This document shows, in pieces, positions 2,977 to 59,962 of a stretch of DNA of 64,000 nt. A program made the translations under genes and the position numbers. The notes beneath the pieces are model-generated. The model had not been told where the DNA came from and did no database searches. It saw nothing but the letters and a program-made list of their open reading frames with translations. How positions within the stretch are numbered: the first letter of the stretch is position 1; each line of letters opens with the position of its first letter. Origin of the DNA: Zoroaster sp. YZ-2022. Lineage: Eukaryota; Echinodermata; Asteroidea; Forcipulatida; Zoroasteridae. Location of the stretch: the NCBI GenBank assembly GCA_029582265.1, contig CM055819.1, forward strand, positions 39,856,761 through 39,920,760. The letters are read 5' to 3'.

Positions 2977-3308
2977 TTAACCCTCCTACTCTAGCTGCAC
3001 TTTAGTGGCAAGTTGCTATAGAGGTCAAAATCAGTCAACTGCCTGTTTTGACTGTTGACCCAAATGTGCACACAGGGGCATTTTTGACTGGTTTTTACTG
3101 TCATTTTGACCACCCTGAACAATACCAGACAATGCTTTTGCCAGTCAAAAAACGGTCGACTCATTTTGACCTGTAAATGTACATGTACTTACTACATGTA
3201 AGGTTTGACAGTGTTTGACTTTTAAGTGCACTAGATATACCTTGGTAAGTACATGTATGTCAACATTTTGACTGAATTTGACCCTTGTAGTTAGCAGGAG
3301 AGTTTTAA
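2977..3308. mobile_element. TTAA MITE family A, copy 2
   Basis: TTAACCCTCCTACTCTAGC to GAGAGTTTTAA. Two positions carry TA changed to TACATGTA relative to other copies (3180-3187 and 3250-3257). Confidence 0.85.
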
Positions 3309-3531
3309 TGTTCCAACGAAAGGAACAATTTGCAGAAAAAAAAGTGACACATCTCTAATGGGTAGTTGACATATAACTGACTTAATAATGCATGATCATG
3401 AACAATGTACATGTACGTATGTGTGCAGTTAGCAGCAGGTGGTATTTCAAAATGCATCAATTGTGTTCACTGCTTGGTTTGGTTAGGCAAACAGGATTCA
3501 GTTGAATAGGTTTGCATAGAGGCAAGCAACT

Positions 3532-3723
3532 CTATGGGGGAGTATTCACTTTGGCACCAGGGCTTTGATGACTTCCTTTGAGGTGAACCAGCAAGGCATT
3601 GAAAGTGACCAACAAGGTCACATATATCTCACGCAGAGAACTCTCTATGGGCTGCCTGATAGTGTTACGGTCCCTGTAGAGTTGGTTAAAGATCATCTTG
3701 CTAATTGCGTACAAACCAGGATC
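3532..3723 (-). CDS. Possible terminal exon of an unidentified gene
   Basis: On the minus strand a T-rich acceptor ending TTTTTTAACAG precedes an open stretch DPGLYAISKMIFNQLYRDRN, then TIRQPIESSLREIYVTLLVT, FNALLVHLKGSHQSPGAK and a stop. Codon use looks natural. I do not recognise the family. Upstream exons would lie at higher coordinates, overlapping the 5' part of the TMC locus. The plus strand is also open here (from about 3515), so strand is not certain. Confidence 0.35.
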   Translation of the reverse strand, partial: DPGLYAISKMIFNQLYRDRNTIRQPIESSLREIYVTLLVTFNALLVHLKGSHQSPGAKVNTPP

Positions 3724-4094
3724 CTGTTAAAAAATAAAAAATAAAAAAATAAGGAAAGAACAAAATTAATGATGGTAGTCTTCACAAAGAATATTTTGTC
3801 AACTTATCATATGACCTCTGGGATGGTCAACTCGTTTATTTAGTAACAACTAGAGGCAGGTACATGTAAATCATGCATCATGAGTTGAACAGAAGCAAAC
3901 ACAAACGCTGTTTGTGTCCATGTTGACAAAATGAAACAAAATAAATTGAATTGATAAATAAAATGAATTTATCAATCTGAAGAGGGCTTACACCATTGGT
4001 AGACATGTAGTTACATGTGCCTGGACATGTAGTTACATGTGCCTGGATAGAAACCGAGTGAACTATTGATCTAGTAAGTTTATTTGGTGTCAAA

Positions 4095-4520
4095 AGGGAA
4101 GGTACATGTACAGCATTGGTAATGTTGGCCAAACTGCTTCTATGAGTATGCTTACTCTCTTTGAATCAAGATATACATGTACATTGAAGGGAAGGTACAA
4201 CATTGGTAATGTTGGCAAAACTGCTTCTATGAGTATGCTTACTCTCTTTGGATCAAGATATACATTGAAGGGAAGGTACAACATTGGTAATGTTGGCAAA
4301 ACTGCTTCTATGAGTATGCTTACTCTCTTTGAATCAAGATATACATTGAAGGGAAGGTATAACCATAGAGAAAGGCTTTGGTAATGTTGGCCAAACTGCT
4401 TCTATGAGTATGCTTACTCTCTTTGAATCAAGATATACATTGAAGGGAAGGTACAACATTGGTAATGTTGGCCAAACTGCTTCTATGATGAATATGCTTA
4501 CTCTCTTTGAATCAAGATAA
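4095..4520. repeat. Five-copy tandem array, about 81-bp unit
   Basis: Units carry GGTAATGTTGGC.AAACTGC and ACTCTCTTTGAATCAAG; starts of GGTAATGTTGG fall at 4118, 4205, 4286, 4380 and 4460. A single diverged copy in the opposite orientation lies at about 32348-32430, next to another C-family element. Open frames here are repeat artefacts. Confidence 0.85.
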
Positions 4521-4543
4521 ATATGCACTCGAAAACAATCATC

Positions 4544-4658
4544 CTGAGGACAATCAGAGCATACTGATTGAAACGTCGAGTTGTACCCCCAGTTCTTTTC
4601 AGAACTAATTACTACTCAATTGAGATTCCACATGGTGTCACCGCAATTAGTCTTACTT
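4544..4658. mobile_element. C-family element, half copy with ribozyme-like hairpin
   Basis: Contains CTGAGGA, a 7-bp stem CAATCAG/CTGATTG with loop AGCATA, then AAACGTCGAGTTGTAC, and one arm of the palindrome ending GCAATTAGTCTTACTT. Compare 32066-32327. Confidence 0.7.
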
Positions 4659-5008
4659 AACAATCATCCTGTGAATTTTTCAGCTTATAACATTGGTTTC
4701 TTTACAAGAAAATGGTGAAAATGCATGCAGAGTTGTTGTATTCATTAGAATTAATTGAAACCGGAAATGATTTGGCTATTCTTAAAAGCGAGAGCTCTTC
4801 AGACAAAATTAATTCTAGGGAAGATTGATACTGTCACCAGGTTTACACTGAAGTGCTTAACTGTTGCACAATATAATTTAACCGTATTGTCATTTTTGAT
4901 TTACCAATCCAATATCTTACCTGTAAGCAATCAACATGGACTACAGTATAATTGGTGGTTGTTGTTATTGTTTTTTGTATCATCAGTCATCACCTCATAC
5001 CTTCATTT

Positions 5009-5361
5009 GTGACAGGCTCTGGCAAAACCCTAAACTTGGACCCAATTTTCAAAAGTGAGATTTTGGTATAGTTTGATTCTCTAGATTTTCTTCTTTCATT
5101 TGACACCGGATTTGTAGAAATCAGAAGAAATTCTTATAATGTAAGAAAAAAATATATAAGAAAACATTTTTTTTTTCTGATTTCAACAAATCTGGTATCA
5201 AATGAAAGAGGAAAATCTAGAGAATCAAACTAGACCAAAATCTAAAAAATAAAAAAATCTGATTTCTACAAATCTGGTATCATATGAAAGAGGAAAATCT
5301 AGAGAATCAAAATCTTACCAAAATCGGGTCAAAGTTTAGGGTTTTGCCAGAGCCAGTCACA
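5009..5361. mobile_element. Palindromic MITE upstream of TMC exon a
   Basis: Left TGTGACAGGCTCTGGCAAAA and right CCAGAGCCAGTCACA are inverted, with arms containing TTTGATTCTCTAGATTTTC. The right arm is partly duplicated. Confidence 0.8.
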
Positions 5362-5427
5362 TTTAATTACACATCTAATTTGTTGAATAGTTTTGTTTAT
5401 TAAAATAATTATTTCTGTTGTTTTCAG

Positions 5428-5497
5428 AGACAAGTATGGCAAGGGAAAGTTAAAGGCGCTGTCAGGGTGGAAATACTTCAAGTATAATACAGCACTG
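5428..5497 (+). CDS. TMC exon a (first recognised)
   Basis: Encodes DKYGKGKLKALSGWKYFKYN and three further residues, the basic cytosolic stretch before the first membrane segment. Acceptor is TTTTCAG, donor GTGAGT. It starts with one base completing a codon and ends in phase 0, matching the next exon. A palindromic MITE ends 66 bp upstream. Confidence 0.75.
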
Positions 5498-8400
5498 GTG
5501 AGTAGTAAGTTGTTCGTATTAGTAAAGACTGTTTGCGGTGACACCATGTGAAATTCTCAATTGAGTATTAATTAGTTCTGAAAAGAACTGGAGGTTACAA
5601 CTCTCCAAAATTTTGTTCGTATTGCAATACTAATATTGACAGTTTTTTATGTAGGGATTGTTGGAGCCAACTTAACCCTAACGCTCTATACACATGTATA
5701 CACGTATTTTGGATTAGAACCTTTCTGAATTTGCACAAAATCACACTTTCAGACAGCTGTTACAATTGGGACATCTGGCCCCATGCAAAGTATCCCTGGG
5801 TGAATACATCAAAATACAACCAGCCACTGCAGTTTTAGGGGTCTGGGGTTGTTGATAGTAAATGCTTTAAAAAAATATTCAATTAAGTAAAATAGGATTT
5901 ACAAGAGACATGAGATTTATGCTTTAAACAATTTTTTTTTTTACTCATGCTGTGCTAGCCACAAGTCGATTTTCACTAGAATGCCATTGAATTTTTTTTG
6001 GGAATTTTGTCTACGTGCCAATTTCTATCCCATGACAATATCCTAAAAAATATGGAAAAAATATACAGAAATGAAATGCGTGTTTTCCACCCGCAGAGAT
6101 GGAAACACTTCAAGGAAAAGATGTACGACTTTGTGTGGCGGCTTGAAGTATGGCGTGCCTCCTTAAAAGAAGTTGAAGGTAGGTGCAGGCCAAGGACCCA
6201 GTAGATGTAGAGCCGAAAGTGAACTTTGCCCGTTTGTAAAAATCCTCATTTCTGTTTTGTCTGAAAGCCCTTCCTATGACTGCAAGGGTCAAAATCAGTC
6301 AAAATTTTGATATACATGTACTTGCCAAGGTATAATGTCAAAACCTTATGTATAGTAAGTACATTTACAGGTCAAAATGAGTCGACCGTTTTTGACTGGT
6401 AAAAGCATTGTCTAGTATTGTTCAGGGTGGTCAAAATGACAGTAAAAACCAGTCAACAATGCCCCTGTTTGCATATTTGGGTCAACAGTCAAAAACCGTC
6501 ACTTGACTGATTTTGACCACTGTAGCTTCTTGCCACTAAAGTGCAGCTATAGTACGAAGGTTAATTGTAAAAATTGTGAATACTTTTTCACATTTTTGTC
6601 ATGAGTTAGGCTCTGCATTGAACCGACACTTTCACAGGTTGGTGGTTTAACCCTAACCTTCCCAAATCCTCCAAAATCCTCTTTGCCAAAGTGAAAGATT
6701 TTGAAGGATTGAGGTTACATGCTACATGCTCTTTGCTAAAGTGAAGGATTTTGGAGGATTGTGGTTATCAGGCATACTTGTGTTTCCATGGTATATGTAC
6801 ATCCATGTTTGTTGTAGTGATTGCAAGGTCAGTGCTTGGGTCAGTGGACACTGTTTATTGCTCCATGCATGCAGGGAGGGTCCCTGGCCATGTACACGTA
6901 TCACAGATTAGAAACACATGTGTGCATACATGTCATGTGCTTGCTTTACTACTGAATGATTTTGGAGGATTCAGGTTATGTGTAAGCAAATGGGCATAGG
7001 GAGTTAGGAAGGATTCAGGTTATGTGTAAGCAAATGGGCCTAGGGAGTTAGGAAGGATTCAGGTTATGTGTAAGCAAATGGGCCTAGGGAGTTAGGAAGG
7101 ATTCAGGTTATGTGTAAGCAAATGGGCCTAGGGAGTTAGGAAGGATTCAGGTTATGTGTAAGCAAATGGGCCTAGGGAGTTAGGGAGGATTCAGGTTATG
7201 TGTAAGCAAATGGGTCTAGGGAGTTAGGAAGGATTCAGGTTATGTGTAAGCAAATGGGCCTAGGGAGTTAAGGTTAATGAATATCTTGTTTGTTCAGGTT
7301 GGTTCAAAATGACAGTAAAAAACATTCAAAAATGCCTCTGTGTGCACGTTGGTTCAACAGTTAAAAAAAAAAATCACTTGACCGATTTTGACAACTATAG
7401 CTACTTGTCACAAACGTTCAGTTACACTGTACAGTTGGAGGGTTCCAATTACAGTGGATACAAATCCGTTTCAGTGATTTGTGTGATGAGTTTATACGTG
7501 TACATTTGGACAAAGGTAAACACCCTTTACTGTACAATTATGTACGTATGCATACATTTATGAATCAACAACAGGATGTGTCAACCACTAAACGGCCCAC
7601 ATTTTGTTGTGTACTTGAAGATCGGTTTTGCTGCAATTTGTCAAGAAGCCATCAGGGGCAGTAATATTGAGTCTGATAACAACTGGTAGGGAATAATTGG
7701 GGAAATTCTTCGTGAATAAATTGTTCTGCTTCAGAAGTTTCAAACAGTTTCAAAAGGGCAATTCCGTTTATAATAATAATAGTTATAATGGACATTTAAT
7801 AATGCGCCGGTATCAGCCAAGCATGACGCTTGTGGTGCATAAGAACAATATACATTGTAAATTAAACAGAGAAACGATGACAGAACAGATGGGTTTTGAG
7901 GGATGATTTGAATGATGGCCCGAATTGTTGTTGGCGGAGTCGATCCGAATTCAGTCCGTTTCATGCCAAAATAGGAAAAATCATTGGCCCTGTAGAGGGT
8001 GGTTCCATTGTGTTAGCACAGAGCAATAAGTCCTTGCTGTATGGGTGCAGGCACCTTACACGTAACGGTGTTTACACGTTGCCAAATGCAGCAATTTTCT
8101 AGTTACAGTCCTTCGTATTCCAGCAACTGTCGGCAGCTTTCTGCAAGTGCACATAGGGTTCTCGACGGGGGTGGAGCCAGGTCGACTAAAAACACTGCAT
8201 CTGTGCACAGCTGCATTTACAATATGCACAAAATGAGGGTTTTTGATGTATGTTTTTTATAGTTTTAGCAAATATTCTAAAAAGTGTCCTTAATGAAAGA
8301 ACCACTTACTCGTATAAAATAGTCATAAACTTTAAGATTCATCTTCATCATCATCATCATCATCATTCTCGCTAATGCCCCCATCACACTTATTCTGAAT

Positions 8401-11400
8401 CAGCAGGAATAAAGCAGAACCAGCCGGAATGAAGAGTTTTCAAAATTCGTTCCACATTCGGGAGGGAATTTCAAATTGACCAAGCTTTGTAAGAATGCCG
8501 TTCGAATACTTAGAATGCGCTCAACCTCGAATGGTTCTTGCACATTCCGGGTGTATTAGCTGTGGAATGCAGCTCGAATGTAGTTGGAACACAGTAGGAA
8601 TATTTAGAATGCTGTTAGAATGCAGTCAGAATATTTAGAATGCTGTTAGAATGCAGTCAGAATATTTAGAATGCACTTCGAATGCCATACGAGTGCGGTT
8701 CGATTGCTGCCCGAATACCGCCTGAAGTTTGGTTGGAAGGTGCCTCGAATGCTGTACGAATTCATCCTTGGCGGCATGACGTGATGTTGACCAGGCGACT
8801 CTCAATGCAGACTGACGCTCCAGCGGCAGCTGGCAGCGCTTTTATGCGATTCGGCGGTGTTCTGAATTACGTCCGGACTCATTCGAGGGCCAATCGGGAC
8901 GTTCCGACTGCATTCGAGCCGCATTCGAAGCGGCAATCGAAAGATTCTGACGGCATTCAAGTGCATTCCAGCTGAATTTTTAATATCGAAATAGATTCCG
9001 CAGCAATCAAGATGCATTCGAGGTGCATTCCGGCTCATTCGAGGCGCATTCGGGACATTCTGGCAGGATTTGAAGTGGCTTGGCGTTTCGATTCTCCCTC
9101 GAATGCGATCAGAATGTTTCGAATGCTGTTGGAATGTCGTAAGAATATTTAGAATGCAGTCAGAGTGCAGTTAGAATACACTTCGAATACCGTTCGATAT
9201 TTCTCCACTTCGAATGCACCTCGACAGTTTTGAGCATGAGCAAAACATTCGGGCTGGCCACAAGAATGGGCCCGAATATTTGGAATGCAGTCAGAAGTTT
9301 TAGAATGCACTTCGAATATCCAGGAAAGAATTTTCATTCCGACGGCATTCCGGCTCATTCCGCCTCTAGTGTGACTAGGGTTTTACAGACAGCTCTGGTT
9401 CGTCGCGCTAGTTGATCATGTCTACACTTAACAGCTTATCTCAAGGGGGGATTGAGCTCATTTATTTTATTTATTATTTATTGATGAGCAAAATAAAATT
9501 GCTTTACTTACATGTAGCCCAACAGAAAACAGTTCCTTAGTTTTTTTTTTAAACTAAATATTTGTGTTTTAAAGTATTATGTTGTTTCATTTTTTAGGGG
9601 GGTTGGTGAGGGAGATGTGGGAGTTTAGTAAGAAAAAATAAGTAAACTCTGTTTGTGGTGACACCATGCAGAAATTATCTTTTGAGTAGTAAATAGTTCT
9701 TTACAGAACCGGTTCATTACAGAACCGGTTCATTTCAGAACCGGTTCTTTTCAGACACCATGCAGAAATTTTGTTTTGAGTAGTAAATAGTTCTTTTCAG
9801 AACCGGTTCAGAACTTTTTACTACTCAAAAGAGAATTTCTAAACGGTGTTACCGCAAACATTCATTCATTCATTCATTTATTAACACATATTCCAATGTT
9901 GACAACAAGAATATTGTTACAAATAATTACACAATATCAAGAGGTTGTACAAAATGCAAAAACAAATTAGTAACATGAAAAGACTATTTATAAGAGAAAA
10001 GAAACTTGTCAACATTGAGGAAAAGAAGAAGCCGGGGCTTTTATTCCTTTCCCTACCCCCACCCCTCCCCTTAATTACAAAATGACAAAGTTACTTGACA
10101 AATGCAGAAGACTACATTCAACAATAACATGGGCAGGAGATCAGACCAAATAATAAGTCAATTAAATAGCACCATTGAACAACTTAAATTTAAGCTTAAG
10201 AGAGCGAGACTGTTTGACATCATCAGCCAGACTGTTCCAGAATTTAATTCCACATTGTTGGGGACTATTTTTAAATAAAGAGGTACGATTAAAATGTTGA
10301 TACAAATGTTTCCTGGATGAGCTTCTGGTTACGTGACAATGAACATCTGAAGTTAAAATAAACGATTGTTGAAAGCAAGGGGGTAATAAATTGTTCATTT
10401 GTTTGAACATAAATTTGCCAAGATTAAGGTAATAAATATATGTTAATTTGAGCAAATTTAAATTGGTAAATAAAGGAGACTAAATAAAACAGACTACTTA
10501 TCGTTTTTCACCATGCAAAGCTACACATATGAGATATTTTAACAATTTTTGCAATGTTTTCTTTGCAGGAAAGTTTGGCACAGCTGTTGTGTCCTACTTT
10601 GTCTTCCTGAAGTGGATGTTGTTCCTTAACATCTACATCTTCGTTTTGATGTTTGGATTGATCGTCATTCCACAGTTTATCCTCCGCGATGGATACGTAG
10701 AGAGTGAGTTTCATCAAGTCTATGTCCTTTTTGTTTTTAAAAGGGAACGTTACAACATTGGCGATTACCCGATTGCAAGATTACCAAATTATTATTCCAA
10801 AGCTACATGTACATTGTAACTTGATATGAAGTTGGTAAAGCTAGCTACCACTCATCTTGAAAGATGATTCTGTCTGAAGCCCTCCCGTCTCAAAGAAAGC
10901 AACTTTTTTGCTTTAAGTGTTTAACCCTTCCACTACTGCAGTTCACGACCGCAAGTTATGCAGTACAAAGGCAGTACATTATTACTCGCAGTTACTCGTG
11001 AATGGTCATTATTCGCGAATAGTTGCAGGTAGCAACAGTTCACCACCACAACTCGCCTTCCAGCAAGCACTATTTGCAAATACTACAATGCGTATCACTA
11101 CCAGCAGTGCCTAGACAAAACGGTGCAATTGGCAGTGTTACTCGTGAATAGTAGTCACGAATAGTTAGTAAACAGTTTACGACTGCAAGTTATGCAGTGC
11201 AAAGGCAATACATTATTACTCGCAATTACTCGTAAACGGCCATTATTTGGGAATAGTTGAAGGTATTCGCGCCAGCCCGATTAATGTAAAAATTGTGAAT
11301 ACGTTTTCACACTTTTGTCATGAGTTAGACTCTGTATTGAACTGACACTTTCACAGGTTGGTGGTTTAATGTATATCTTGTTTCAAGTAAACGCACGCAT

Positions 11401-14400
11401 AGAACCGATTTTTGCAAGCATCACAGATGTTGCACTCTTTAAAGTTATAGTGAGTTATCTCCGAGCCATATTGTTTGCATTTCATATGTCCAATGTTTGT
11501 TACTGAATCAACTTTACTGTAACAAAGGTTCATTTGTTGGAAAAAACTCATAAACCTAAATAGTTTTCAAATATCAAACATCAAAGTTGCCGTTTTGACC
11601 TCTTTTCTTTTAGTAAACAGTCTATGTCTGCAAATTGCTTCTAACTGTTTGAAATATTAATTATATTCACAGACTCAACTTGTGAAATTGAGTACAATGA
11701 GAATGTTGACAAAAAGTGTGCTGAAGGCCAAACGGACCAATGTATCGTGGATTTTATAGGTGGCACGGTAAGTGGTATTTTAATCTCATTTTAATCTCAT
11801 CGTTGCTGTTGGATGCCACGGCCGAGCAGTTTACCGCTATGGCCGAGCGGTTCACCGCCATGGCCGAGCGGTTTACCGGCATGGCCGAGCGGTTCACCGC
11901 CATGGCTGAGCGGTTCACCGCCATGGCCCAGCGGTTTACCGCCATGGCCCAGCGGTTTACCGCATCGGATTGGTGTTTCTGATGGCCGAGTTATCAGAAT
12001 GTGGGTTCCAAGCCTGGCCATGACTGTAGTGCTTGTTTCCCTAAATGAGATTCTTTACCGTAATTGCTTCTCTCCAATCCATGGGTGCCTGCGATGGCTG
12101 CGAGCCATCAGAATGTGAATTTGAATCCTGGCTAAAGGGTCACGGTGCCTGTGTCCTGTGACCAAGAGACTTGACCCATAATTGCTTCTCTCCAATCCAT
12201 GGGTGCCTGCGATGGCTGCGAGTCATCAGAATGTGAATTTGAATCCTGGCTAAAGGGTCACGGTGCCTGTATCCTGTGACCAAGAGACTTGACCCATAAT
12301 TGCTTCTCTCCAGTACAAATGGGTACCTGTGAAGGCAGAGACGGTTATTGTGTTTGATCAGCCGCAGAGTATAACACCGGAAGCTCTGGCCCAAGTTTAA
12401 GAATTGAAACTGACCCGATGACCCATCTTTAATAATTGTCCTTGTTTTTTTAATTTTTTAATTTTTTTAAACAGGGCTGGATGGAACAGACGGAATTATT
12501 CTACGGAAAGTATCCCCCTACATTCGGTAATACAAACAGCACGGGCCCCGTCGCTTTCTTAGACAGCGTGTACGCTATACCTCTAGCCTATCTGCTCACA
12601 ACAGCTGGCTACTTTTTGCTCTCTCTTCTATTGATGGTCCAATAGTAAGTAACCTTCAAGTCTTGTAACTCCACATTAAGTGTAAATCAATGTATACTCA
12701 ACCCTCTTAAGTAAACTTAAATAAATGGTGGTCCCATAACGATGACTGGTCCCATAACGATGACTGATCCCATAACGATGACTGGTCCCATAACGATGAC
12801 TGGTCTCATAACGATGATGATTTTTTTTAATTGAAACATTTTCAGAATATCTACCCTATTAACAAAGAACCCAGAGGTTGCAGGTTCACATCGTGCACTA
12901 GTAAATTTTTCTTTGTTCATTCTATAAAAATAAAAATGGTAAAAGTACCTAGTCATCAACCTATACATATTGCGGAACCCGCTGCTATATAGGATTCTAG
13001 CCGGCCAATCGTCATCGGGCAAGCTCGGTGGTCGAGAGGTTAAGACGTCTGCACTAGTAAACAGGAGGTTGTGGGTTCGAATCCCGCCAGAGTCGCCTGT
13101 GAAGTACGTTGGAAAGCACTGAGTATACAGTGCTATAAATACATCGGTGTAGGGCAAATTAAATCAATTGTTTATCTATCGCCCGACGCAAGAATTTCAT
13201 CAACCTATACATATCGCGGTACCTGCTGCTATATAGGATTCTAGCCAGCCAATCGTCATCGGGCAAGCTCGGTGGTCATGAGGTTGAGACATCTGCACTA
13301 GTAAGCAGGAGGTTGTGGGTTTGAATCCCGCCCGAGTCGCCTGTGTAGTTTTTTCACAGACACTCAGAAAGCACTGAGTATACAATGCTATACACACGTC
13401 GGTGTAGGGCAAAATTGAAATCAAAAGTACCTAGTCAGTTTCCCCTGTGGTTTATTTGAGTGGTTTATATGAGTATAATGTATGATTTTGAGTATAATGT
13501 ATGATTTTGAGTATAATGTATGATTTTGAGTATAATGTATGATTTTGAGTATAATGTATGATTTTGAGTATAATGTATGATTTTGAGTATAATGTATGAG
13601 TTTGAGTATAATGTATGATTTTGAATATAATGTATGATTTTGAGTATAATGTATGATTTTGAGTATAATGTATGATTTTGAGTATAATGTATGATTTTGA
13701 GTATAATGTATGATTTTGAGTATAATGTATGATTTTGAGTATAATGTATGATTTTGAGTATAATGTATGATTTTGAGTATAATGTATGATTTTGAGTATA
13801 ATGTATGATTTTGAATATAATGTATGATTTTGAATATAATGTATGATTTTGAGTACATGTATAATGTATGATTTTGAGTATAATGTATGATTTTGAGTAT
13901 AATGTATGATTTTGAGTATAATGTATGATTTTGAGTATAATGTATGATTTTGAGTATAATGTATGATTTTGAGTATAATGTATGATTTTGAGTATAATGT
14001 ATGATTTTGAGTATAATGTATGATTATGAGTATAATGTATGATTATGAGTATAATGTATGATTATGAGTATAATGTATGATTATGAGTATAATGTATGAT
14101 TATGAGTATAATGTATGATTATGAGTATAATGTATGATTATGAGTATAATGTATGATTATGAGTATAATGTATGATTATGAGTATAATGTATGATTATGA
14201 GTATAATGTATGATTATGAGTATAATGTATGATTATGAGTATAATGTATGATTATGAGTATAATGTATGATTATGAGTATAATGTATGATTATGAGTATA
14301 ATGTATGATTATGAGTATAATGTATGATTATGAGTATAATGTATGATTATGAGTATAATGTATGATTATGAGTATAATGTATGATTATGAGTATAATGTA

Positions 14401-17400
14401 TGATTATGAGTATAATGTATGATTATGAGTATAATGTATGATTATGAGTATAATGTATGATTATGAGTATAATGTATGATTATGAGTATAATGTATGATT
14501 ATGAGTATAATGTATGATTATGATTATGAGTATAATGTATGATTATGAGTATAATGTATGATTATGAGTATAATGTATGATTATGAGTATAATGTATGAT
14601 TATGAGTATAATGTATGATTATGAGTCTAATGTATGATTATGAGTCTAATGTATGATTGTGAGTCTAATGTATGATTGTGAGTCTAATGTATGATTGTGA
14701 GTCTAATGTATGATTATGAGTATAATGTATGATTATGAGTCTAATGTATGATTATGAGTCTAATGTATGATTGTGAGTCTAATGTATGATTGTGAGTCTA
14801 ATGTATGATTGTGAGTCTAATGTATGATTGTGAGTCTAATGTATGATTGTGAGTCTAATGTATGATTGTGAGTCTAATGTATGATTGTGAGTCTAATGTA
14901 TGATTGTGAATGTAATGTATGATTGTGAATGTAATGTATGATTGTGAGTGTAATGTATGATTGTGAGTGTAATGTATGATTGTGAGTGTAATGTATGATT
15001 GTGAGTCTAATGTATGATTGTGAGTCTAATGTATGATTGTGAGTCTAATGTATGATTGTGAGTCTAATGTATGATTGTGAGTCTAATGTATGATTGTGAG
15101 TCTAATGTATGATTGTGAGTCTAATGTATGATTGTGAGTCTAATGTATGATTGTGAGTCTAATGTATGATTGTGAGTCTAATGTATGATTGTGAGTCTAA
15201 TGTATGATTGTGAGTCTAATGTATGATTGTGAGTCTAATGTATGATTGTGAGTCTAATGTATGATTGTGAGTCTAATGTATGATTGTGAGTCTAATGTAT
15301 GATTGTGAGTCTAATGTATGATTGTGAGTCTAATGTATGATTGTGAGTCTAATGTATGATTGTGAGTCTAATGTATGATTGTGAGTCTAATGTATGATTG
15401 TGAGTCTAATGTATGATTGTGAGTCTAATGTATGATTGTGAGTCTAATGTATGATTGTGAGTCTAATGTATGATTGTGAGTCTAATGTATGATTGTGAGT
15501 CTAATGTATGATTGTGAGTCTAATGTATGATTGTGAGTCTAATGTATGATTGTGAGTCTAATGTATGATTGTGAGTCTAATGTATGATTGTGAGTCTAAT
15601 GTATGATTGTGAGTCTAATGTATGATTGTGAGTCTAATGTATGATTGTGAGTCTAATGTATGATTGTGAGTCTAATGTATTATGGTGAGTCTAATGCGAT
15701 TGTGAGTCTAATGTATGATTGTGAGTCTAATGTATGATTGTGAGTCTAATGTATGATTGTGAGTCTAATGTATGATTGTGAGTCTAATGTATGATTGTGA
15801 GTCTAATGTATGATTGTGAGTCTAATGTATGATTGTGAGTCTAATGTATGATTGTGAGTCTAATGTATGATTGTGAGTCTAATGTATGATTGTGAGTCTA
15901 ATGTATGATTGTGAGTCTAATGTATGATTGTGAGTCTAATGTATGATTGTGAGTCTAATGTATGATTGTGAGTCTAATGTATGATTGTGAGTCTAATGTA
16001 TGATTGTGAGTCTAATGTATGATTGTGAGTCTAATGTATGATTGTGAGTCTAATGTATGATTGTGAGTCTAATGTATGATTGTGAGTCTAATGTATGATT
16101 GTGAGTCTAATGTATGATTGTGAGTCTAATGTATGATTGTGAGTCTAATGTATGATTGTGAGTCTAATGTATGATTGTGAGTCTAATGTATGATTGTGAT
16201 TGTGAGTCTAATGTATGATTGTGAGTCTAATGTATGATTGTGAGTCTAATGTATGATTGTGAGTCTAATGTATGATTGTGAGTCTAATGTATGATTGTGA
16301 GTCTAATGTATGATTGTGAGTCTAATGTATGATTGTGAGTCTAATGTATGATTGTGAGTCTAATGTATGATTGTGAGTCTAATGTATGATTGTGAGTCTA
16401 ATGTATGATTGTGAGTCTAATGTATGATTGTGAGTCTAATGTATGATTGTGAGTCTAATGTATGATTGTGAGTCTAATGTATGATTGTGAGTCTAATGTA
16501 TGATTGTGAGTCTAATGTATGATTGTGAGTCTAATGTATGATTGTGAGTCTAATGTATGATTGTGAGTCTAATGTATGATTGTGAGTCTAATGTATGATT
16601 GTGAGTCTAATGTATGATTGTGAGTCTAATGTATGATTGTGAGTCTAATGTATGATTGTGAGTCTAATGTATGATTGTGAGTCTAATGTATGATTGTGAG
16701 TCTAATGTATGATTGTGAGTCTAATGTATGATTGTGAGTCTAATGTATGATTGTGAGTCTAATGTATGATTTTGAGTCTAATGTATGATTGTGAGTCTAA
16801 TGTATGATTTTGAGTCTAATGTATGATTTTGAGTCTAATGTATGATTTTGAGTCTAATGTATGATTTTGAGTCTAATGTATGATTTTGAGTCTAATGTAT
16901 GATTTTGAGTCTAATGTATGATTTGAGTCTAATGTATGATTTTGAGTCTAATGTATGATTTTGAGTCTAATGTATGATTTTGAGTCTAATGTATGATTTT
17001 GAGTCTAATGTATGATTTTGAGTCTAATGTATGATTTTGAGTCTAATGTATGATTTTGAGTCTAATGTATGATTTTGAGTCTAATGTATGATTTTGAGTC
17101 TAATGTATGATTTTGAGTCTAATGTATGATTTTGAGTCTAATGTATGATTTTGAGTCTAATGTATGATTTTGAGTCTAATGTATGATTATGAGTCTAATG
17201 TATGATTATGAGTCTAATGTATGATTATGAGTCTAATGTATGATTATGAGTCTAATGTATGATTATGAGTCTAATGTATGATTATGAGTCTAATGTATGA
17301 TTATGAGTCTAATGTATGATTATGAGTCTAATGTACATTGTATATGATTATGAGTCTAATGTATGATTATGAGTCTAATGTACATTGTATATGATTATGA

Positions 17401-20400
17401 GTCTAATGTGTATGATTATGAGTCTAATGTGTATGATTATGAGTCTAATGTGTATGATTATGAGTCTAATGTGTATGATTATGAGTCTAATGTGTATGAT
17501 TATGAGTCTAATGTGTATGATTATGAGTCTAATGTGTATGATTATGAGTCTAATGTGTATGATTATGAGTCTAATGTGTATGATTATGAGTCTAATGTGT
17601 ATGATTATGAGTCTAATGTGTATGATTATGAGTCTAATGTGTATGATTATGAGTCTAATGTGTATGATTATGAGTCTAATGTGTATGATTATGAGTCTAA
17701 TGTGTATGATTATGAGTCTAATGTGTATGATTATGAGTCTAATGTGTATGATTTTGAGTCTAATGTGTATGATTTTGAGTCTAATGTGTATGATTTTGAG
17801 TCTAATGTGTATGATTTTGAGTCTAATGTGTATGATTTTGAGTCTAATGTGTATGATTTTGAGTCTAATGTGTATGATTTTGAGTCTAATGTGTATGATT
17901 TTGAGTCTAATGTGTATGATTTTGAGTCTAATGTGTATGATTTTGAGTCTAATGTGTATGATTTTGAGTCTAATGTGTATGATTTTGAGTCTAATGTGTA
18001 TGATTTTGAGTCTAATGTGTATGATTTTGAGTCTAATGTGTATGATTTTGAGTCTAATGTGTATGATTTTGAGTCTAATGTGTATGATTTTGAGTCTAAT
18101 GTGTATGATTTTGAGTCTAATGTGTATGATTTTGAGTCTAATGTATGATTTTGATTCGTTTCTTCTGATGTCTGCAGCACCGCACGTGGTTTCAAAGAGA
18201 GTCTGTCCAACCAGGAGGATTTCCAGTACAAGTCTTGCAACAAAGTCTTTGCTGTGTGGGATTTCTCCCTGACTGACGATAACAATGCCTACTTGAAACA
18301 CCGCAGTATCCACTACGAACTAGCGGTATGTGTAGTCATGTAAATAAGTCACATATCTGTTACTGACTTCACAACTAATCGAAATCTTTTTTTGATAAAC
18401 CAAACAAATTTAACATTTTGGTATTTTTGTTTGTTTCACAAAGTGTTAAATATAATTCAAAGATGTATTTGTCTGTGTCTTAGGCCCAGAAAGATGTATT
18501 TGTCTGTGTCTTAGGCCCAGAAAGATGTATTTGTCTGTGTCTTAGGCCCAGAAAGATGTATTTGTCTGTGTCTTAGGCCCAGAAAGATGTATTTGTCTGT
18601 GTCTTAGGCCCAGAAAGATGTATTTGTCGGTGTCTTAGGCCCAGAAAGATGTATTTGTCGGTGTCTTAGGCCCAGAAAGATGTATTTGTCGGTGTCTTAG
18701 GCCCAGAAAGATGTATTTGTCGGTGTCTTAGGCCCAGAAAGATGTATTTGTCGGTGTCTTAGGCCCAGAAAGATGTATTTGTCGGTGTCTTAGGCCCAGA
18801 AAGATGTATTTGTCGGTGTCTTAGGCCCAGAAAGATGTATTTGTCGGTGTCTTAGGCCCAGAAAGATGTATTTGTCGGTGTCTTAGGCCTAGAAAGATGT
18901 ACATGTATTTGTCTGTGTCTTAGGCCCAGAAAGATGTATTTGTCGGTGTCTTAGGCCTAGAAAGATGTATTTGTCGGTGTCTTAGGCCCAGAAAGATGTA
19001 TTTGTCTGTGTCTTAGGCCTAGAAATATGTATTTGTCTGTGTCTTAGGCCCAGAAAGATGTATTTGTCTGTGTCTTAGGCCCAGAAAGATGTATTTGTCT
19101 GTGTCTTAGGCCCAGAAAGATGTATTTGTCTGTGTCTTAGGCCCAGAAAAAAAGTCTTCGGTTTCTGGTCTCCGTGTCCGTCACCTCAGACCTCTGCGAC
19201 GGCATTTTTTATTTCAATTTTTTTTTTGCTATGAAACAATGTCCAATTGCAGCCAAAATTGCTGGATCGATTTGAATCTTGCCGTGCTGTGCTTTGAATG
19301 ACTTTTTCACATAGGGGTATGAACGTTTGCCCGATTTGTGATGCCTCTCTTAGCCACCATATGTTGTATATGGGAAATTTGGTCCCCGTGTATACAATGT
19401 ATCTCGTATTTCCCTGTTTGCAAAAAGAAAAGATGGCCGAAAAAAAGCGTCACCGCACCGATTTTGAAGCCGACCGATGACCAGAAACTGGAGACAGTTT
19501 ACTTTGGCCTTAGCCATTTTAACGGCAACTCCAGGAAAGCTATTTTCATCAGAACATTGCTATGGTACTCGTGGGAGGGAGAACAAATGCTATAAAATAA
19601 CACATTTCAATAATTGTGACAAGCATGGTTTCACAGTTAACATGTGAATTTATGGTGGGTCCTGTCCTAAATAAATTTGGGCACTTTTTTTATACTATTA
19701 ACGGGCCTGTGATTTCTAAGGATTTTTGACAAATCTCTCTAGCCACCAAGGAAAGAAAGAAGTAGCCTGTATCGTGTCCAAACCTCTAATTTCTTGTTTG
19801 TGGGGATGTGGAGAGTCTGTAAATCCTCCAAAATTCAACATCCAGAAAATTAAACATCCAGGAGGTTCAGGGGACTTTGTCCTCGAGACCCAAGGGAGAC
19901 CCAGGCCTGCTACCCACAGGAGGTTCAGGGGACTTTGTCCTCGAGACCCAAGGGAGACCCAGGCCTGCTACCCACAGGAGGTTCAGGGGACTTTGTCCTC
20001 GAGACCCAAGGGAGACCCAGGCCTGCTACCCACAGGAGGTTCAGGGGGCTTTGTCCTCGAGACCCAAGGGAGACCCAAGGGAGACCCAGGCCTGCTACCC
20101 ACAGGAGGTTCAGGGGACTTTGTCCTCGAGACCCAAGGGAGACCCAGGCCTGCTACCCACAGGAGGTTCAGTGGACTTTGTCCTCGAGACCCAAGGGAGA
20201 CCCAGGCCTGCTACCCACAGGAGGTTCAGGGGACTTTGTCCTCGAGACCCAAGGGAGACCCCAGGCCCTGCTTCCCCATTTTTCAGGATTTTTTGCTTTG
20301 GTCAAATCACACCCCTGAATTAAACCAAACTTCCAACAACTATTTTGTGAAATATGTCATTTAAAAATATTTGTTTTCCTTTCTAAAATAAAAAAGAAAT

Positions 20401-21887
20401 TATCGTCGCATCAGTGCAACAAGGTCGTATCTAAAAAAAAAAATGCAACAAGGTCGTATGTGCGATAGTACATGAATTTGCATACATTAAAACAATTTGA
20501 ATGCAACAACGTCGTATCTTCTTCCATAGGTTTTGTGTGTTCATCCTGGAACTCTGTAAAAAAAAAAGATACGACCTTGTTGCACTGAGCAAAGTCCATG
20601 TCTGCAACAAGGTCGTAACTATGATACGACCTTGTTGCACTGAGCAAAGTCCATGTCTGCAACAAGGTCGTAACTATGATACGACCTTGTTGCACCGATG
20701 CGACGTTATCACTGTTCCAGTCAACATCAAAATTCCCAAAGCACAGGGTGGTGTCAGTAACAGGTCATTTCTGGATCGTTTGTGTATACTGAAAGCAGTA
20801 ATGCTTATTCCATGTTTGTATGTACAAATGTATATATATGCAGTGTGACAGTGTGCAACACGTGACATTCACTGCCTCAATTTAATCCTGCATTTCAATA
20901 AAAACAAATATTGAAGCTTTGACAGTTCCCTTTATCAGACTGCGGCCATCTTGGTCTGATTCCCTGCATACACAATGGCAATGACAGTTGTTATTCTCAT
21001 TTCATAAAAAAGGTGCCAGACTATTTTTTCCCCTTCCAGCCTCGGTTTGGTTTACATTGATTTGAATGGAAGAAAAACAAGATGGCAGCACCATGACTAA
21101 AGGTCGATAGATTCATCTGTCTATAATTGTGTTTATTTTTTTGCTGACATTCTAGACGGATCTCGAAGAGGAGAGACAGAAACTCAAACGGGAAAAAAGA
21201 ACCACCTGGCAAAAATTTAAACTTTATTTCCTTCGTCTGGTGCTCAATCTACTGGTCCTAATCATACTCGGTGGAGCTGGGTACCTCATCTACTACACCA
21301 CCGACCTGTCTGTACAGGTAAGAATTACTCATCGTTTGTCATCTCTTCCCCCAAAAAAATTGGTGTAAAGTTGCACATGATATAAGATTTAAGGCTTTTC
21401 ATGGTAGAGTATTGATATCGTGTCGGTTTGCGGTAACACCGTGTGTTTATCTCAACTATCGCTAAGTGAGGTAACGGGTTCTGAAAAGAAACTTATCGCA
21501 CAACTCGTATCTCGACTGTCTCTATAGTGAGATTATGGTTCAGGGGAAGAAGCATTTTTCAGGAGAATGAAGAGATGTAGCACTTTAAGTAGTATTTGCT
21601 AGGATTATGTGTTGAATGACAAGTTGCACGCCCGTGACCATGCCCCAAACCGGTCGTTAACCTGCGTCCAAACTATTATTCCCATTCATAAGTGCCTGTG
21701 AGGGCAGAGTTGGTTGTTGTGTTTGATTAGCCATATATGCGCTGTAATGGCAGCAATTGAGCTGTATACTCCCTAGGGAGCTGAGATGGTTTCAGGAATG
21801 ATTTATGAGCCTGATGAGCAGGGGTAATAATGTCATGCGCCTTGAGCACCAGTTTGGTGGATACGTGCGCCATATAAGTCCACATTC

Positions 21888-21918
<31 letters not shown>

Positions 21919-24900
21919 GCCCGTATTGATTTCGTTCTCAAAATGTCAAAATAAAAAAAATGTAATTTTTGTTGAATAAAAGCCAAATAGAAATGGGCAA
22001 ACTCATGTTTTGGGGACGCCACGAAACACTTCCAAAAGTACGTGTGTCTGGCTCGTGATGCTAATCTTCGTCACTCTGATTGGTTGGAATCCGCATCACG
22101 CGTCGCACAAAAGAGCTGGTGAACAGCTGGCACATACCCACTGCTCTGATCTTGATAAGCCACTCTATACCATCTGTTAATACGCCCCGGTCGTGACACT
22201 TGTGTCCTTGAGCAAGGTACTTAACCATAATTGCTTCGTCCTTCGGATGGGACGTAAAGCCGTAGGTCCCGTGTGTTGTGTAATGCACGTAAAAAAGAAT
22301 GCGCCTTGAGCACCACTTAGTTGGTGGATACGTGCGCTATATAAGTCCACACATTATTATTATTATTATTACATTTTGTCCAGTCAGATTGTCTGAACTG
22401 TCTTGGGCACTTATGAATGACAAATAATGCATCTTCACTTTTTGTTATCAACATAATGAAATAAGCTGAAACTTTCACAGGTTGGTTTGTATATGTGTAC
22501 GTATCTTTTGAGGCTTTGCATGGTGGAATATCGATATCGTTTCGGTTTGCGGTAACACCATGTGTTTATCTCAACTAACGTGAAGCTGAGGTACAGGTTC
22601 TGAAAAGAACCGTATCGTACAACTCGTATCTCAACCTTCGTTAAGTGAGAAAGGTTCAAGGGAGAACCAATTTTGGGCAACTCGTTTTTCTCTACTGTCG
22701 CTAAGTGAGAAATATGGTTGAGATACGAGTTGTACGATACGGTTCTTTTCAGAACCTGTACCTCAGCTTCACGTTAGTTGAGATAAACACATGGTGTTAC
22801 CGCAAACCGAAACGATATTGTACATATCTTCTTGATTCTTACAAAGTATTGATGCATTTACAGACATTTAACCAAAGTGTACACTGGCGTTCAACAATAA
22901 CACAGAAGAATTTCTGGAATCACTGTAGAGCGTTGTCAAGTTTCAGTCAATAATTTAACCTGCTTTTTTACAAATAGTGTGGATTGAATTTAAAGGTCCC
23001 ATGAAATGGTAATTTTTCACACTACATTTTGGGGGCTTAATATATGGTTTTGTATTAATAAAACATAATACTTACTATTTTTATAAGTTTGTCATGAGTT
23101 ATAACAATTTAATTTGTCCCCAAAATTTGTGTTGTCCCTTTTGATATCGCATTTCGTGACGTAGACCTAGGCACCGAATGACAAAGGACATTGACAATGC
23201 ACATTCCTGACCATTATGCTCTGGTAAGCTTCACTGCAGCCGTCCAAACAAATTCGTTGATATTTTAGATCTGATGGGAATCTGTGCAGACTGACACCAT
23301 TCTTTAGAAGTGTTGCTGTAATCAGCAACAATACACCTTGGCGGCATAACAACAAAAACAGTTACATAAGTTTGCACGTTGTATCATTCATATGTATCGA
23401 TCGATGCGCGCCAACAAACAGCATGTTCCTAGGTCTACGTCACAAATTTGTCCCCTTTTAGGGGCGCGGGTTCATCCCAAATTTTTATTTATTATTTTTT
23501 TGCGATGTAAATCTCCAATACATTTTTTTTTAAATTGCATTTATAGGTTAATGTGTGCATATTTTATAGTTTACAATGGAAAAAATTTCTAATTCATAGG
23601 ACCTTTAAAAAACTAATTTCCTTGTTTCATATTATTTTCTCAGCATTCCAATGAAGCAATCACGATGAACGCATTTGCCAGTCTTCTGATTGGTTACCTC
23701 CCGTCCATCACCATAACGATACTCAACGGTGTGGTGCCGATGATCTTCAACGTCATCGTCCGATTTGAAGACTACAGTCCGCAGTTTGAAATTGGCATTA
23801 CGCTAGTCAGGTAAGGGCCCTCAAAGTCGGGACTCCAGACATTACATAACCGTCTAAAGATTCCCTAACCGTCCCTCTATCAGTCCCATTTTTAAAACAA
23901 TCATCTGAGGTCACTCCAAACTATTGCAGTTGATGCCAATGACCTCATATGTCTAGCCTTCTGTGTAATGTAAAACCACTTAACGGGCCGTCCAAAGTAG
24001 TCAACATTTGCAAGGTAATATAGAGAGTACTACTTTTCAAGACCCCCTTCCCTCAAAGTAATACTTATTAACATTTTATTTTATACAAATTTGAATTTTC
24101 TCCTGTTTATAAATTTTTCAACATTTTTAAAGTCGTACGTGGCCGCTGAAACCCCCCTCCCCCCCCCCCCCCGTAGTACGTTTTGTACTACCGTGAAAAT
24201 GTTGACAACTTTGGACGGCCCCTAAGATACACTACCCCTCGGACTATCAAATGTATCAGATCAGTAGTCCTTCTGTTAACCGTAACTCCCTAGGCCCATT
24301 TGCTTACACATAACCTGAATCCTTCCTAACTCCCTAGGCCCATTTGCTTACACATAACCTGAATCCTTCCTAACTCCCTAGGCCCATTTGCTTACACATA
24401 ACCTGAATCCTTCCTAATTCCCTAGGCCCATTTGCTTACACATAACCTGAATCCTTCCTAACTCCCTAGGCCCATTTGCTTACACATAACCTGAATCCTT
24501 CCTAACTCCCTAGGCCCATTTGCTTACACATAACCTGAATCCTCCAAAATCCTTCAGTAGCACATGACATGTATTCACACATGCCATGTATGCACACATG
24601 TGTTTCTAATCTGTGATACATGTACATGTACATGGCCAGGGACCCTCCCTGCATGCATGGAGCAATAAACAGTGTCCACTGACCCAAGCACTGACCTTGC
24701 AATCACTACAACAAACATGGATGTACATGTACCATGGAAAGGCAAGTATGCCTAATAACCTCAATCCTCCAAAATCCTTCACTTTAGCAAAGAGCGTGTA
24801 GCGTGTCACCTCAATCCTTCAAAATCCTTCACTTTAGCAAAGAGGATTTTGGAGGAAACGAAGTACGTGGAAGTTCGGTAAGTGTTCATCAAAGACTGCT

Positions 24901-27900
24901 ATTCAGTTTCTGAAATGTTACATCAGATTTTTTAAAAGTGGGTTTCGGGTAACCGTAACCGGTAACAAGGAACTTGGTATTGAACTTAACAGTTGGGTAC
25001 CTGCAAACCCGGGTACCCAGCACAGGCCTAGTATACAATCCCATAACCCTCCTACACATGTAACCTCAATCCTTCAAAATCCTTCACTTTAGCAAAGAGG
25101 ATTTTGGAGGATTTGGGAAGGTTAGGGTTAACGCGCTGATGGGCTAGTGGCAATTTCTACCCCTGCCTTTGGTGTCCGTGACTCGGACAATCCACGCATT
25201 GAAATCTGTCTTTCTCTTCTCAGGACCGTGTTTCTTCGTCTGGCGTCACTGGGGGTCTTATTCTTCTCGCTCTACCCACAAATCGTGTGCGACAAGACCG
25301 ATGAGACTGATTGCGGCGTCTGCAAATCCGGAAGCGTAAAGGTATCCAAGAACTTCTGTCATTTTTTTAGTAGCCCACCCGGCCTGTCAATGTCACAAAG
25401 TTAGGATGTGCCGGGTATCCGGATACCCTGATAACCGGCCCAGCCTAACCGAATCTGTCATTACCCTGTTCCATTTTTCAGTTCCAATTACCCGTAAACG
25501 ACTTTTGAAAAATTTGACTGAATATGTAAGCCACACAAATGGAAGTCTCCGATTTTTTTGGATAACAAAATGTGTGTGGGGAATGGGGATGCTACAAGTA
25601 ATTTTTATTATAGAGGCGGGAAATTATTACAGAAAGTCGACATTTATTATTAGTCTAATAAAACAAGAGAATCTTATATATTCAGGGAGTATTTACGTGT
25701 TTTTACAATTTTTTTTACAGGTATCCGGGTATCCAAAGATTTCCAATTTCGGGTATCCGGTTCCCGAAATAACCGAAAATACACAGCCTTATCACAAAGG
25801 AACTATTTGTGGTCTCCGTGGGAAAATACTAGTTTTGTGGACATGCCGTCACATGATAAAATTCTATCACTTGATAAAATGAATGAAAAACAATACACAC
25901 AAATATAATTTATAAATATTTAACAAATTCAACAAATTTTTCCACAAATCAAATTAAACTGCCACTTCAAATACAAAATTGTGAACTTTGATTTCCAAAC
26001 TTATTTAAATTCTAAGACCGCGTAACCCTCCTACTCTAGCTGCACTTTAGTGGAAAGTTGCTGTAGAGGTCAAAACCAGTCAACTGCATGTTTTGACCGT
26101 TGACCCATATGTGCACACAGGGGCATTTTGGACTGGTTTTTACTGTCATTTTGACCACCCTGAACAATACCAGACAATGCTTTTACCAGTCAAAAACGGT
26201 CGACTCATTTTGACCTGTAAATGTACTTACTACACGTAAGGATTGACAGTGGTTGACTAGATAGTGCACTAGATATACATGTACCTTGGGAAGTATTTCA
26301 ACATTTTGACTGATTTTGACCCTTGTAGTAGTAGGAGGGTTAATTAAATAAGCTCAATTTTTCTTCGCACGGTTTACAAAAAGTAAGTTTTAGGTAAATG
26401 TTGACTAATTGATTATTTTTGTATAATTATTTATTTATGAAATTATCAATTACATGACTTAATATATGTATATGCATTTGTTATTTATCCATAAGTGCTG
26501 GGAGACCTATGTCGGCCAGGAATTCTACAAATTGACCATCACTGACTTTGCTGCTGTCGTACTTGTAGTGCTGATCGTGGAGTTCCCTCGGAAGTAAGTA
26601 ACTATTTTGATTTGATTCCAAACCGGATATTGAACTATAGAAGGTAACTACATCACTCAAAACAGAGTGCCGACCAATTTAAAAAAATACTCACAATAAG
26701 TATTATGAAGGTGAGAACAGAATTAAAATCCATCAAGAATTTTTAATGATAATCTTAAAATATTATCATGAGAATATTCAGTGTTTCACATGAAAGATTG
26801 CAACAATTAAGCATAATATATTAACAATAGTCTGCTTAGTGACCAACCTTATTTGACCTTTTGAGAAACGTTCCCCAAACTCCCTCCATTCCATAGACCA
26901 TTTCGCAAATGCCACAGTGCGCATAATGATTTCTAGCTAATTACTGCAAAACTGACCATATCTCCCTGTATATTGTCCATCAATGTTACACTGAACAACA
27001 GTTACACATGATTTTCTTTGATTTTATGTGTTCAGTTAAACTTTATGATTTTTATATAACACCCAACTAGATCATTGTCATTTGATTGGAGGATTGTAGG
27101 TCATGTGGCATTCATTAATCAAACCATTACATGGCCTACGTCATAAACCGTGCATTTTGGTTCCATTCAACGTGCATTTTTGTTCCATCCCATTTGATCT
27201 ATTGCACGCTAGACCACATCATGCGTTATATGCACAGCAGTACAAAACGCCCTCTGTTGACAAGACACAACCATTTGAGCAAACCGTGCGTCATAAGCCG
27301 AAAAATAAAGTAGTGGATGCCAGAATACAATCTTGTATATTTTATTTATTCTTATGGTTTTATCCTCCAATCAAATGACAAAGATCTACTTGGATGTTAT
27401 ATAAAAGAAATAATGAATGTTTTGCATTCGTGCAATGGAGAGAATATTTTCATTCGTTGAAAGATGGAATGTTCCATTCAACTCATGAAAATATTCTCAC
27501 CATTGAAAGATGGAATGTTCCATTCAACTCATGGAAATATTCTCACCATTGAAAGATGGAATGTTCCATTCAACTCATGAAAATATTCTCACCATTGAAA
27601 GATGGAATGTTCCATTCAACTCATGGAAATATTCTCACCATTGAAAGATGGAATGTTCCATTCAACTCATGAAAATATTCTCACCATTGAAAGATGGAAT
27701 GTTCCATTCAACTCATGAAAATATTCTCACCATTGCACTCATAAACATTCATTATTTGTATAATAAACTACACAGTGACATACGGAGAAATGGAAACATT
27801 GATCGCTAGTAAGATGGGATGTAACACGTGCATATATTCGCAAAGTCGTCTACAGACCTTTGTCATGGTGCATCCATCTTGTTTTTTCTTCCATTCAAAT

Positions 27901-37976: not shown

Positions 37977-38244
37977 TACTACTCAAAACAATTTAGGGAA
38001 CACCAGAATAATCTCAGTTAAAGCAATATCATTTATTTCAGATAAACACAATGTTTCACAGAATTGATGAGAAACAACTGCACAATGAAACAGATAATAA
38101 AGGATGCATGTAGTGATTACACATTTCATGACATGACGACTGAAAGAGAGAGAGGGGGTTGCAAATGAAAATCCCGGTTCATGGAACATTTCAAACCTAT
38201 TTGATGTTAAAAATCCGGTGTTCCCTAAATTGTTTTGAGTAGTA
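37977..38244. mobile_element. Tc1/mariner-type MITE family Q
   Basis: TACTACTCAAAACAATTTAG at one end, with its complement at the other; about 28-bp inverted ends, with TA at both borders. Confidence 0.85.
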
Positions 38245-48152: not shown

Positions 48153-48354
48153 ATGAAGCACAACTTCACTTTCTCACTGTCTTGTGCTGTGAGGATCAAG
48201 GTATTTTCACTTCGCAGTGATCCACTGATTATGTAAAATATTTTGCGGACTTAACACTTTAGAACTGATCTATCTATTTCAGTGCCTTTTAAAAGTAATT
48301 TGTCCCTTAATCAACTTACTTGAACAATATTTTGAAAATTGCTTTACCACAGAA

Positions 48355-50185: not shown

Positions 50186-50560
50186 AACTGTATTATAAAC
50201 TCAAAGTCTTTTGTCAACTTACATATCTAACTGAACTGACTGAAAGCCACCATTTTTAAGTATTGAATGTCAAATTTGAATTATTAAAATTTCGTTCTTG
50301 AAAATACGAGACTCATTTTCCTTGATGACGGGAACTGTTATTTGAAAATCCAAATGTAAATGGGGAAACATCTCAATGGGAAACATCTCAGTGGTGTTCG
50401 TGAAATTCAAATACAATTGTTGTATTGGTGTAATGATGAGTGTTACTTTGGCTCAAACTGACATTTCTAAGCAATGTACAAAACACTCGGTGCTTGTGAT
50501 TCCCTATGAAGCATATCCACAAGATAATCAGGTGGGATTGGGACCCAAGACCTCCTGATT

Positions 50561-50800
50561 ACTAACCCTAACCTTCCCAAATCCTCCAAAATCCACTTTG
50601 CCAAAGTGAAGGATTTTGAAGGATGGAGGTTACATGCTACATGCTCTTTGCTAAAGTGAAGGATTTTGGAGGATTGAGGTTATTAGGCATACTTGCCTTT
50701 CAATGGTACATGTACATCCATGTTTGTTGTAGTGATTGCAAGGGCAGTGCTTGGGTCAGTGGACACTGTTTATTGCTCCATGCATGCAGGGAGGGGCCAC
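50561..50800. mobile_element. TTAA MITE family B, copy 4 (right half replaced)
   Basis: TAACCCTAACCTTCCCAAAT at the left; matches 59499-59899 up to CATGCATGCAGGGAGGG, where a different array takes over. Confidence 0.85.
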
Positions 50801-59336: not shown

Positions 59337-59498
59337 GGTAAATTGATAACTTGTCCTGAAATTAAAATGTATGGAATATTGTTTAATTGAATGATAATGA
59401 AAATGGCCCCATCATACTAACATCCATCATCATAATTCCCTCGTCAACATCACAATGATAATTTTAATTATTTTTTATAACTAATTAGGCCTCATAGT

Positions 59499-59899: not shown

Positions 59900-59962
59900 T
59901 CAATTTTTTTTAAGGGAGGCTAGCTAGGCGTAGTTAAACTTTGTTATAAAAAAAACAGCTTT

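Follow-up and report, generated by a model that had tools for sequence, protein, structure and literature searches.

Recurrent gains of TACATGTA at TA in repeat copies of a sea-star genome resemble transposon excision scars

The window analyzed here is a stretch of 64,000 nucleotides from the sea star Zoroaster sp. YZ-2022 (assembly GCA_029582265.1, contig CM055819.1, positions 39,856,761 to 39,920,760). At several sites within repeats of this DNA, a TA which is found in sister copies is replaced in individual copies by the 8-mer TACATGTA, a net gain of six bases that duplicates the TA. We give somewhat better than an even chance to the explanation that transposons of the Tc1/mariner kind, which target TA and have CA...TG ends, left these gains behind as scars when they were excised. 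The donors were probably short nonautonomous elements similar to one found at 32581–33177.

Gains of TACATGTA in four repeat families

The initial annotation proposed that TA had become TACATGTA at eight sites in repeat copies. This was borne out at every one: the exact palindrome is present at all eight coordinates, which are distributed across four repeat families, and in each case bases have been gained and the TA doubled where the sister copies have TA. Four of the sites belong to family A, a repeat of about 320 bp with the ends TTAACCC...GGGTTAA, whose sister states were read from an alignment of the copies. The first (3180–3187, in the copy at 2977–3308) is found in one of the eight copies which have letters at this position, six of the others showing TA and one TT; it is also a perfect duplication of ATGTAC. 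The sites at 3250–3257 and 6313–6320, the latter in a minus-strand copy, occupy the identical TA position, at which two of eight copies carry TACATGTA. Shared descent of these two was rejected, as no exclusive derived substitution is common to both copies; a very short conversion tract could also have produced the sharing. The fourth site (26276–26283, in the copy at 26023–26353) is present in one of seven copies. A phage collection searched with a family A copy gave no match.

Two further sites lie in the first unit of an 81-bp array. At its start (4103–4110, read by eye because it is the array edge) all four later units have plain TA, and at its end (4174–4181) three of the four do, the last unit being divergent there. 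Nearby substitutions were observed at 3250 and at 4103. The remaining two sites are in one unit of a 19-bp minisatellite (13854–13861; one of 237 split units, with 57 intact GAGTATAATG contexts left) and in one unit of a 31-bp array (18900–18907), in which 20 units have plain TA. The minisatellite extends over 13470–18154 and consists of about 240 units with variants; 35 units are of 21 bp, with TG added, and two TACATTGTA units represent a 9-bp change that is possibly complex.

Judged from the aligned copies, gain at TA would be the simplest polarity for these sites, since within near-identical arrays only one unit carries TACATGTA. The opposite polarity, an ancestral TACATGTA lost by deletion, was rejected, as it would require loss in about 20 near-identical 31-bp units and in most family A copies. 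A probable mutated member of the same group, TACGTGTA at 321–328 in the family A copy 272–556, is likewise a 6-bp gain where sister copies have TA.

To place these gains in the indel spectrum of the window, gaps between repeat copies were listed blind to the motif, with at least 7 of 10 matching bases required on each side of the gap, and were then collapsed to loci; pairs inside 13400–18300 (analyzed separately) and 29000–29900 were set aside. The resulting loci numbered 9 for 4 bp, 5 for 5 bp, 14 for 6 bp, 2 for 7 bp, and 2 for 8 bp. The 14 six-base loci comprise six TA to TACATGTA changes, one slippage of TACATGTA (24617), one TACGTGTA, one TAGGCCTA, and five others. With the sites at 4103 and 13854 and two simple 6-bp duplications from the 19-bp array included, the total is 18, of which eight are TA to TACATGTA, one its slippage, one TACGTGTA, one TAGGCCTA, and seven assorted. 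Among these window loci no other six-base gain recurs, as the initial annotation would predict, whereas the gains other than TACATGTA, when pooled, are nearly as many.

The excess of TACATGTA claimed for this DNA was also confirmed, with 23 unmasked occurrences versus 1.57 +/- 1.33 expected and a maximum of 6 in 60 dinucleotide shuffles. Among the TA-N4-TA words of the window it ranks first, and in strand-merged counts only the microsatellite word TAATAATA exceeds it, with 31. By a Markov estimate of maximal order (21.8 for 25 occurrences) there is no excess, which is expected because the whole 8-mer is the unit. The excess drops with spacing: TACA-Nx-TGTA occurs 23, 10, 3, and 1 times for N0, N1, N2, and N3, against shuffle expectations of 1.6, 1.4, 1.4, and 1.7, respectively.

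Landing-site flanks and local duplication

The flanks of the sites were read outwards on both sides as half-sites, such that A at −3 equals T at +3 (background 0.318). From the 25 TACATGTA sites 17 were kept, those at 3193, 24617, 24623, 24724, 33880, 33982, 50707, and 49251 being dropped; the selection was based on origin and preceded the −3 count of the others, although by then all 25 contexts had been viewed and the eight sister-checked sites counted. In the sister-checked sites, A is found at −3 in 13 of 16 half-sites (11 of 14 when 6313 is removed) and a purine at −1 in 16 of 16. The nine kept sites without sister copies, which serve as a second sample, have A at −3 in 12 of 18 (P = 0.0025). 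Altogether, A-3/T+3 is present in 25 of 34 half-sites of the 17 kept sites (P = 7e-7), in 32 of 50 for all 25 sites (P = 3e-6), and in 7 of 16 for the eight dropped ones. Conditional on the two nearer bases, the 25 observed compare with 10.9 expected. After removal of TG half-sites the count is 19 of 26.

Control words gave lower rates of A-3/T+3: 0.29 for other TANNNNTA, 0.35 for other palindromic TANNNNTA, 0.28 for TATATA, 0.22 for TACATG without TA, and 0.385 for TACATA/TATGTA, with counts of 4/10 for TAGGCCTA, 6/20 for TACACGTA/TACGTGTA, and 6/30 for TACAGTA/TACTGTA. The pattern agrees with ANNTANNT, the reported target preference and consensus of Sleeping Beauty (PMC2756404); a palindromic ATATATAT has been described for ZB, SB, and Bari and suggested to be common to Tc1-like elements (PMC7913693). 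This superfamily preference is found at the present landing sites, a GTAC context supplying a part of it.

Such flanks might also arise by short-range duplication, that is, by slippage or templated end joining of a nearby hexamer (ATGTAC or ATATAC, for instance) followed by point changes to TACATGTA. The similarity of the flanks to CATG exceeds the background (sum 17 vs 5.7, P = 0.0015; P = 0.0098 without 3180 and 6313), which slippage predicts as well and which counts against excision. Among tandem hexamers the class ACATGT leads with 7 of 34, five of those seven being in copies of a second repeat family, in which the sites at 24617 and 24623 are a 6-bp slippage of a pre-existing TACATG. Several copies of this second family, which starts with TAACCCTAACC (6645–7282, 24276–25131, 33590–34137, 50559–50802, and 59497–59904), contain an internal 44-bp tandem array of variable copy number. 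The dropped family A site at 3193 has another origin, namely TACACGTA plus one substitution without any insertion.

The initial annotation held that slippage cannot explain the first event. This failed at 3180, where the exact tandem duplication of the adjacent ATGTAC makes slippage sufficient. Of the 17 kept sites, 15 are not perfect hexamer duplications. With a perfect fit only at 3180 and 3408, hexamer slippage was rejected as the general cause. Imperfect duplications would require extra changes that always reach one palindrome, even in near-identical array units. Moreover, duplication of CATG beside TA predicts G at −1 and T at −2 at least as strongly, together with C at −4, whereas the −3 position dominates: A at −3 is kept where −1 is not G (12/18), and C at −4 is not enriched (5/34). 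In the first 4 kb there are 10 TACATGTA but only one other TACATG/CATGTA. Considering both sides, we regard local duplication as an unlikely source of the gains as a whole.

A resident element and the excision model

A scan for TA-flanked inverted repeats detected a 597-bp element at 32581–33177 with the ends CAGGGTGTCCCC / GGGGACACCCTG, arms of about 230 nt that are 97% complementary, and CA...TG termini. It is flanked by TA duplications at 32579–32580 and 33178–33179 and is located inside a 114-bp tandem unit, whose neighboring junction (33254–33333) has the same TA as an empty site. When the element flanks are joined with one TA, they differ from this junction at 3 of 80 bases by eye; over 160 bases a script counted 16 differences. 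The CA and TG inserted at the TACATGTA sites match the terminal nucleotides of this element, the one candidate donor confirmed. A second candidate at about 1033–1268 starts with CACTCACGG after TA, its right end deviating from TG. No transposon title was among the literature matches listed for the end sequence of the 597-bp element. Elsewhere in the window, a TA-flanked inverted repeat at 37977–38244, starting with CTACTCAAAACAATTTAGGG and having CT...AG ends, is another possible TA-target element.

The ANNTANNT flanks and the presence of a CA...TG element with an empty sister site lead us to favor transposon excision. According to this model, an element would insert at TA, preferably within ANNTANNT, and duplicate the TA. 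A transposase acting in trans would then excise it, leaving the terminal CA as a 3' overhang on each flank, and host end joining would retain both overhangs and fill across, which would give TA-CA-TG-TA, the empty site plus six bases. If 32581–33177 were cut out with 2-nt overhangs and these were fully retained, the product would be exactly TACATGTA.

Several observations weigh against excision. The purine at −1 fell to 9 of 18 in the nine sites without sister copies, so that only the −3 signal repeats, and the A-3/T+3 rate is 0.416 at TA within GTAC (P = 2e-5) and 0.371 at TA in the same repeats, indicating that the sequence context accounts for some of the flank bias; at ATGTA sites the −3 rate is high by construction. 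The landing site of the 597-bp element is CTGTACAG, not ANNTANNT, and this one confirmed element stands against 17 kept sites. All 17 lie before 26.4 kb and 11 of them before 4.2 kb (3e-7 under uniformity, by a test chosen after the map was viewed). Local hopping or a preference for open chromatin, both reported for such elements (PMC7827188, PMC7913693), could have caused this clustering. In addition, taCATGta has been reported as a Tc1 scar and termed a rare one (PMC3520976), the typical somatic Tc1 scar being +4 (78%; PMC13148408). The mixed spectrum with partial +4 scars is missing here: there are no TACATA/TATGTA gains among the nine flank-filtered four-base loci, no such partial forms among the 4-, 5-, or 7-base loci, and no clear enrichment of the words TACATA/TATGTA (48 vs 36.3 +/- 5.9). 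This leaves two possibilities, that both overhangs are retained by the repair of this lineage or that something other than Tc1-like excision is at work. Finally, no Tc1/mariner-type transposase domain was found among 146 scanned frames of at least 72 residues, nor any Tc1-type coding remnants.

Transposase pieces of another type, pogo/Tc5-like (HTH_psq, HTH_Tnp_Tc5, and DDE_1), are present at 57331–59411; the ends of this element were looked for but not found, and its C-terminal end has a weak PHD-finger match (22.4 bits vs the Pfam cut-off of 24). In the published 615-Mb Patiria genome, Tc1-Mariner repeats are on the list of repeats (PMC10511450). The initial annotation's proposal of Tc1-type excision is partly supported, namely by the flanks, the exact palindrome at all eight named sites, gain as the simpler polarity, and the CA...TG element with its TA duplication and empty sister; the lack of partial scars speaks against it. 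Because these were sought and not found, and because no pair of filled and scarred sites was seen, we describe the process as a likeness of Tc1/mariner scarring in which full retention is unusually uniform, and not as a proven member.

The uniform +6 gains, unaccompanied by partial scars in the listed loci, would also be expected from a TA-directed insertion or repair without any transposon, for example a break at TA mended with a fixed added sequence. A second word of the same form, TAGGCCTA, could be taken in the same sense: it has five unmasked occurrences, all within 60.5–62.6 kb (60528, 61014, 61498, 62360, and 62577), and three masked ones in the 31-bp array. On the other hand, we are not aware of an enzyme adding CATGTA. 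With a transposon end as their source, CA and TG require no additional enzyme, and the window contains an element of this type at 32581–33177. This makes TA-directed addition, in our view, quite improbable.

The copy of TAGGCCTA at 61014–61021 lies in one arm of a hairpin whose opposite arm has TA instead, and from this one two-arm comparison the word may be a second scar. It was rejected as a full parallel to TACATGTA, as it has no bias for A at −3 (4/10) and its lone difference is between two arms only, which allows either polarity. A tentative extension of the excision model, which we consider possible although doubtful, is that the sea-star germline always mends 2-nt transposon cuts in the same manner, with both overhangs kept, each transposon family writing its own TA-xy-y'x'-TA word near where it hops, CA giving TACATGTA and GG giving TAGGCCTA.

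The one-base-spaced form TACA-N-TGTA occurs at 65, 1078, 1866, 2042, 2049, 7423, 7851, 10810, 19393, and 40272. Nine kept TACANTGTA sites, without 19393, show A-3/T+3 in 12 of 18 half-sites. As +1 scars they were rejected, because a clean gain relative to a sister copy is lacking and 19393 arose by substitution. The usual scars of Sleeping Beauty are TACAGTA/TACTGTA, words that are mildly frequent in the window (15 vs 6.9 +/- 2.7 in shuffles; 15 vs 10.6 at order 2).

It could also be supposed that TACATGTA is a functional homeodomain binding site of the Irx type, maintained by selection and lost in sister copies. In Phytophthora it is an abundant upstream motif that fits the Irx preference (PMC3520976), and in the window it clusters in 0–4.2 kb. 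Yet the gains occur singly, some within units of the minisatellite or the arrays and others within dispersed repeat copies, the corresponding sisters showing TA, and exact 6-bp insertions are not a product of selection. We therefore judge a selected binding site to be highly implausible.

Among the other features of the window, a 390-aa frame at 48229–49401, inside which the dropped site 49251 lies, has PAN and fibrinogen C-terminal domains. The best 120 of its 2918 relatives have sea-star proteins (Patiria, Asterias) at the top, mostly with 45–57% identity, which agrees with asteroid nuclear DNA. In the 22 of these 120 homologs that a pattern matched, the spacing from WW to Cys is the same as in the window frame, and the loop just past the Cys is longer in the window frame than in most of the 22. 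Two Rfam tRNA matches (13022–13095 and 13266–13339) are located in a duplicated stretch.

Comparison with known systems

If the 8-mer is a scar, sequence data would suffice to count cut-and-paste traffic, including that of departed or extinct families, and animals could be compared in how their germline repairs the breaks made by transposons. Excision is normally hard to detect in genomes; over-represented TA-bounded palindromes, here and in other genomes, would provide a family-resolved log of it if the extended model of family-specific words is true. Among the open-licence literature matches listed, no report of TACATGTA as a genome-wide excision scar in an animal was seen; a discussion of it as a transposon scar was met in PMC3520976, where this interpretation is set aside for Phytophthora.

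The closest likeness is to the footprints of Tc1 in Caenorhabditis elegans, in which the TA is duplicated and the terminal CA/TG retained, TACATGTA being among the reported scars (PMC3520976). Unlike in C. elegans, where +4 is typical and TACATGTA rare (PMC13148408, PMC3520976), only the full +6 form is found here. Sleeping Beauty and ZB share the ANNTANNT-like landing flanks (PMC2756404, PMC7913693), whereas Sleeping Beauty cuts three nucleotides inside the element (PMC7827188), which differs from the present sites. Stowaway miniature inverted-repeat transposable elements (MITEs) of the Triticeae have likewise left historic scars at empty sites, composed of TA and a few terminal nucleotides; those scars are variable in length, whereas the present ones are uniform (PMC1925063).

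Motif-1 of Phytophthora is the identical abundant palindrome TACATGTA, for which its authors, in contrast to our interpretation, expected no transposon footprint (PMC3520976). The comparison with sister copies made here is absent from the available part of the motif-1 account (PMC3520976). The excision model thus offers a testable alternative for a motif that has been interpreted elsewhere as a binding site.

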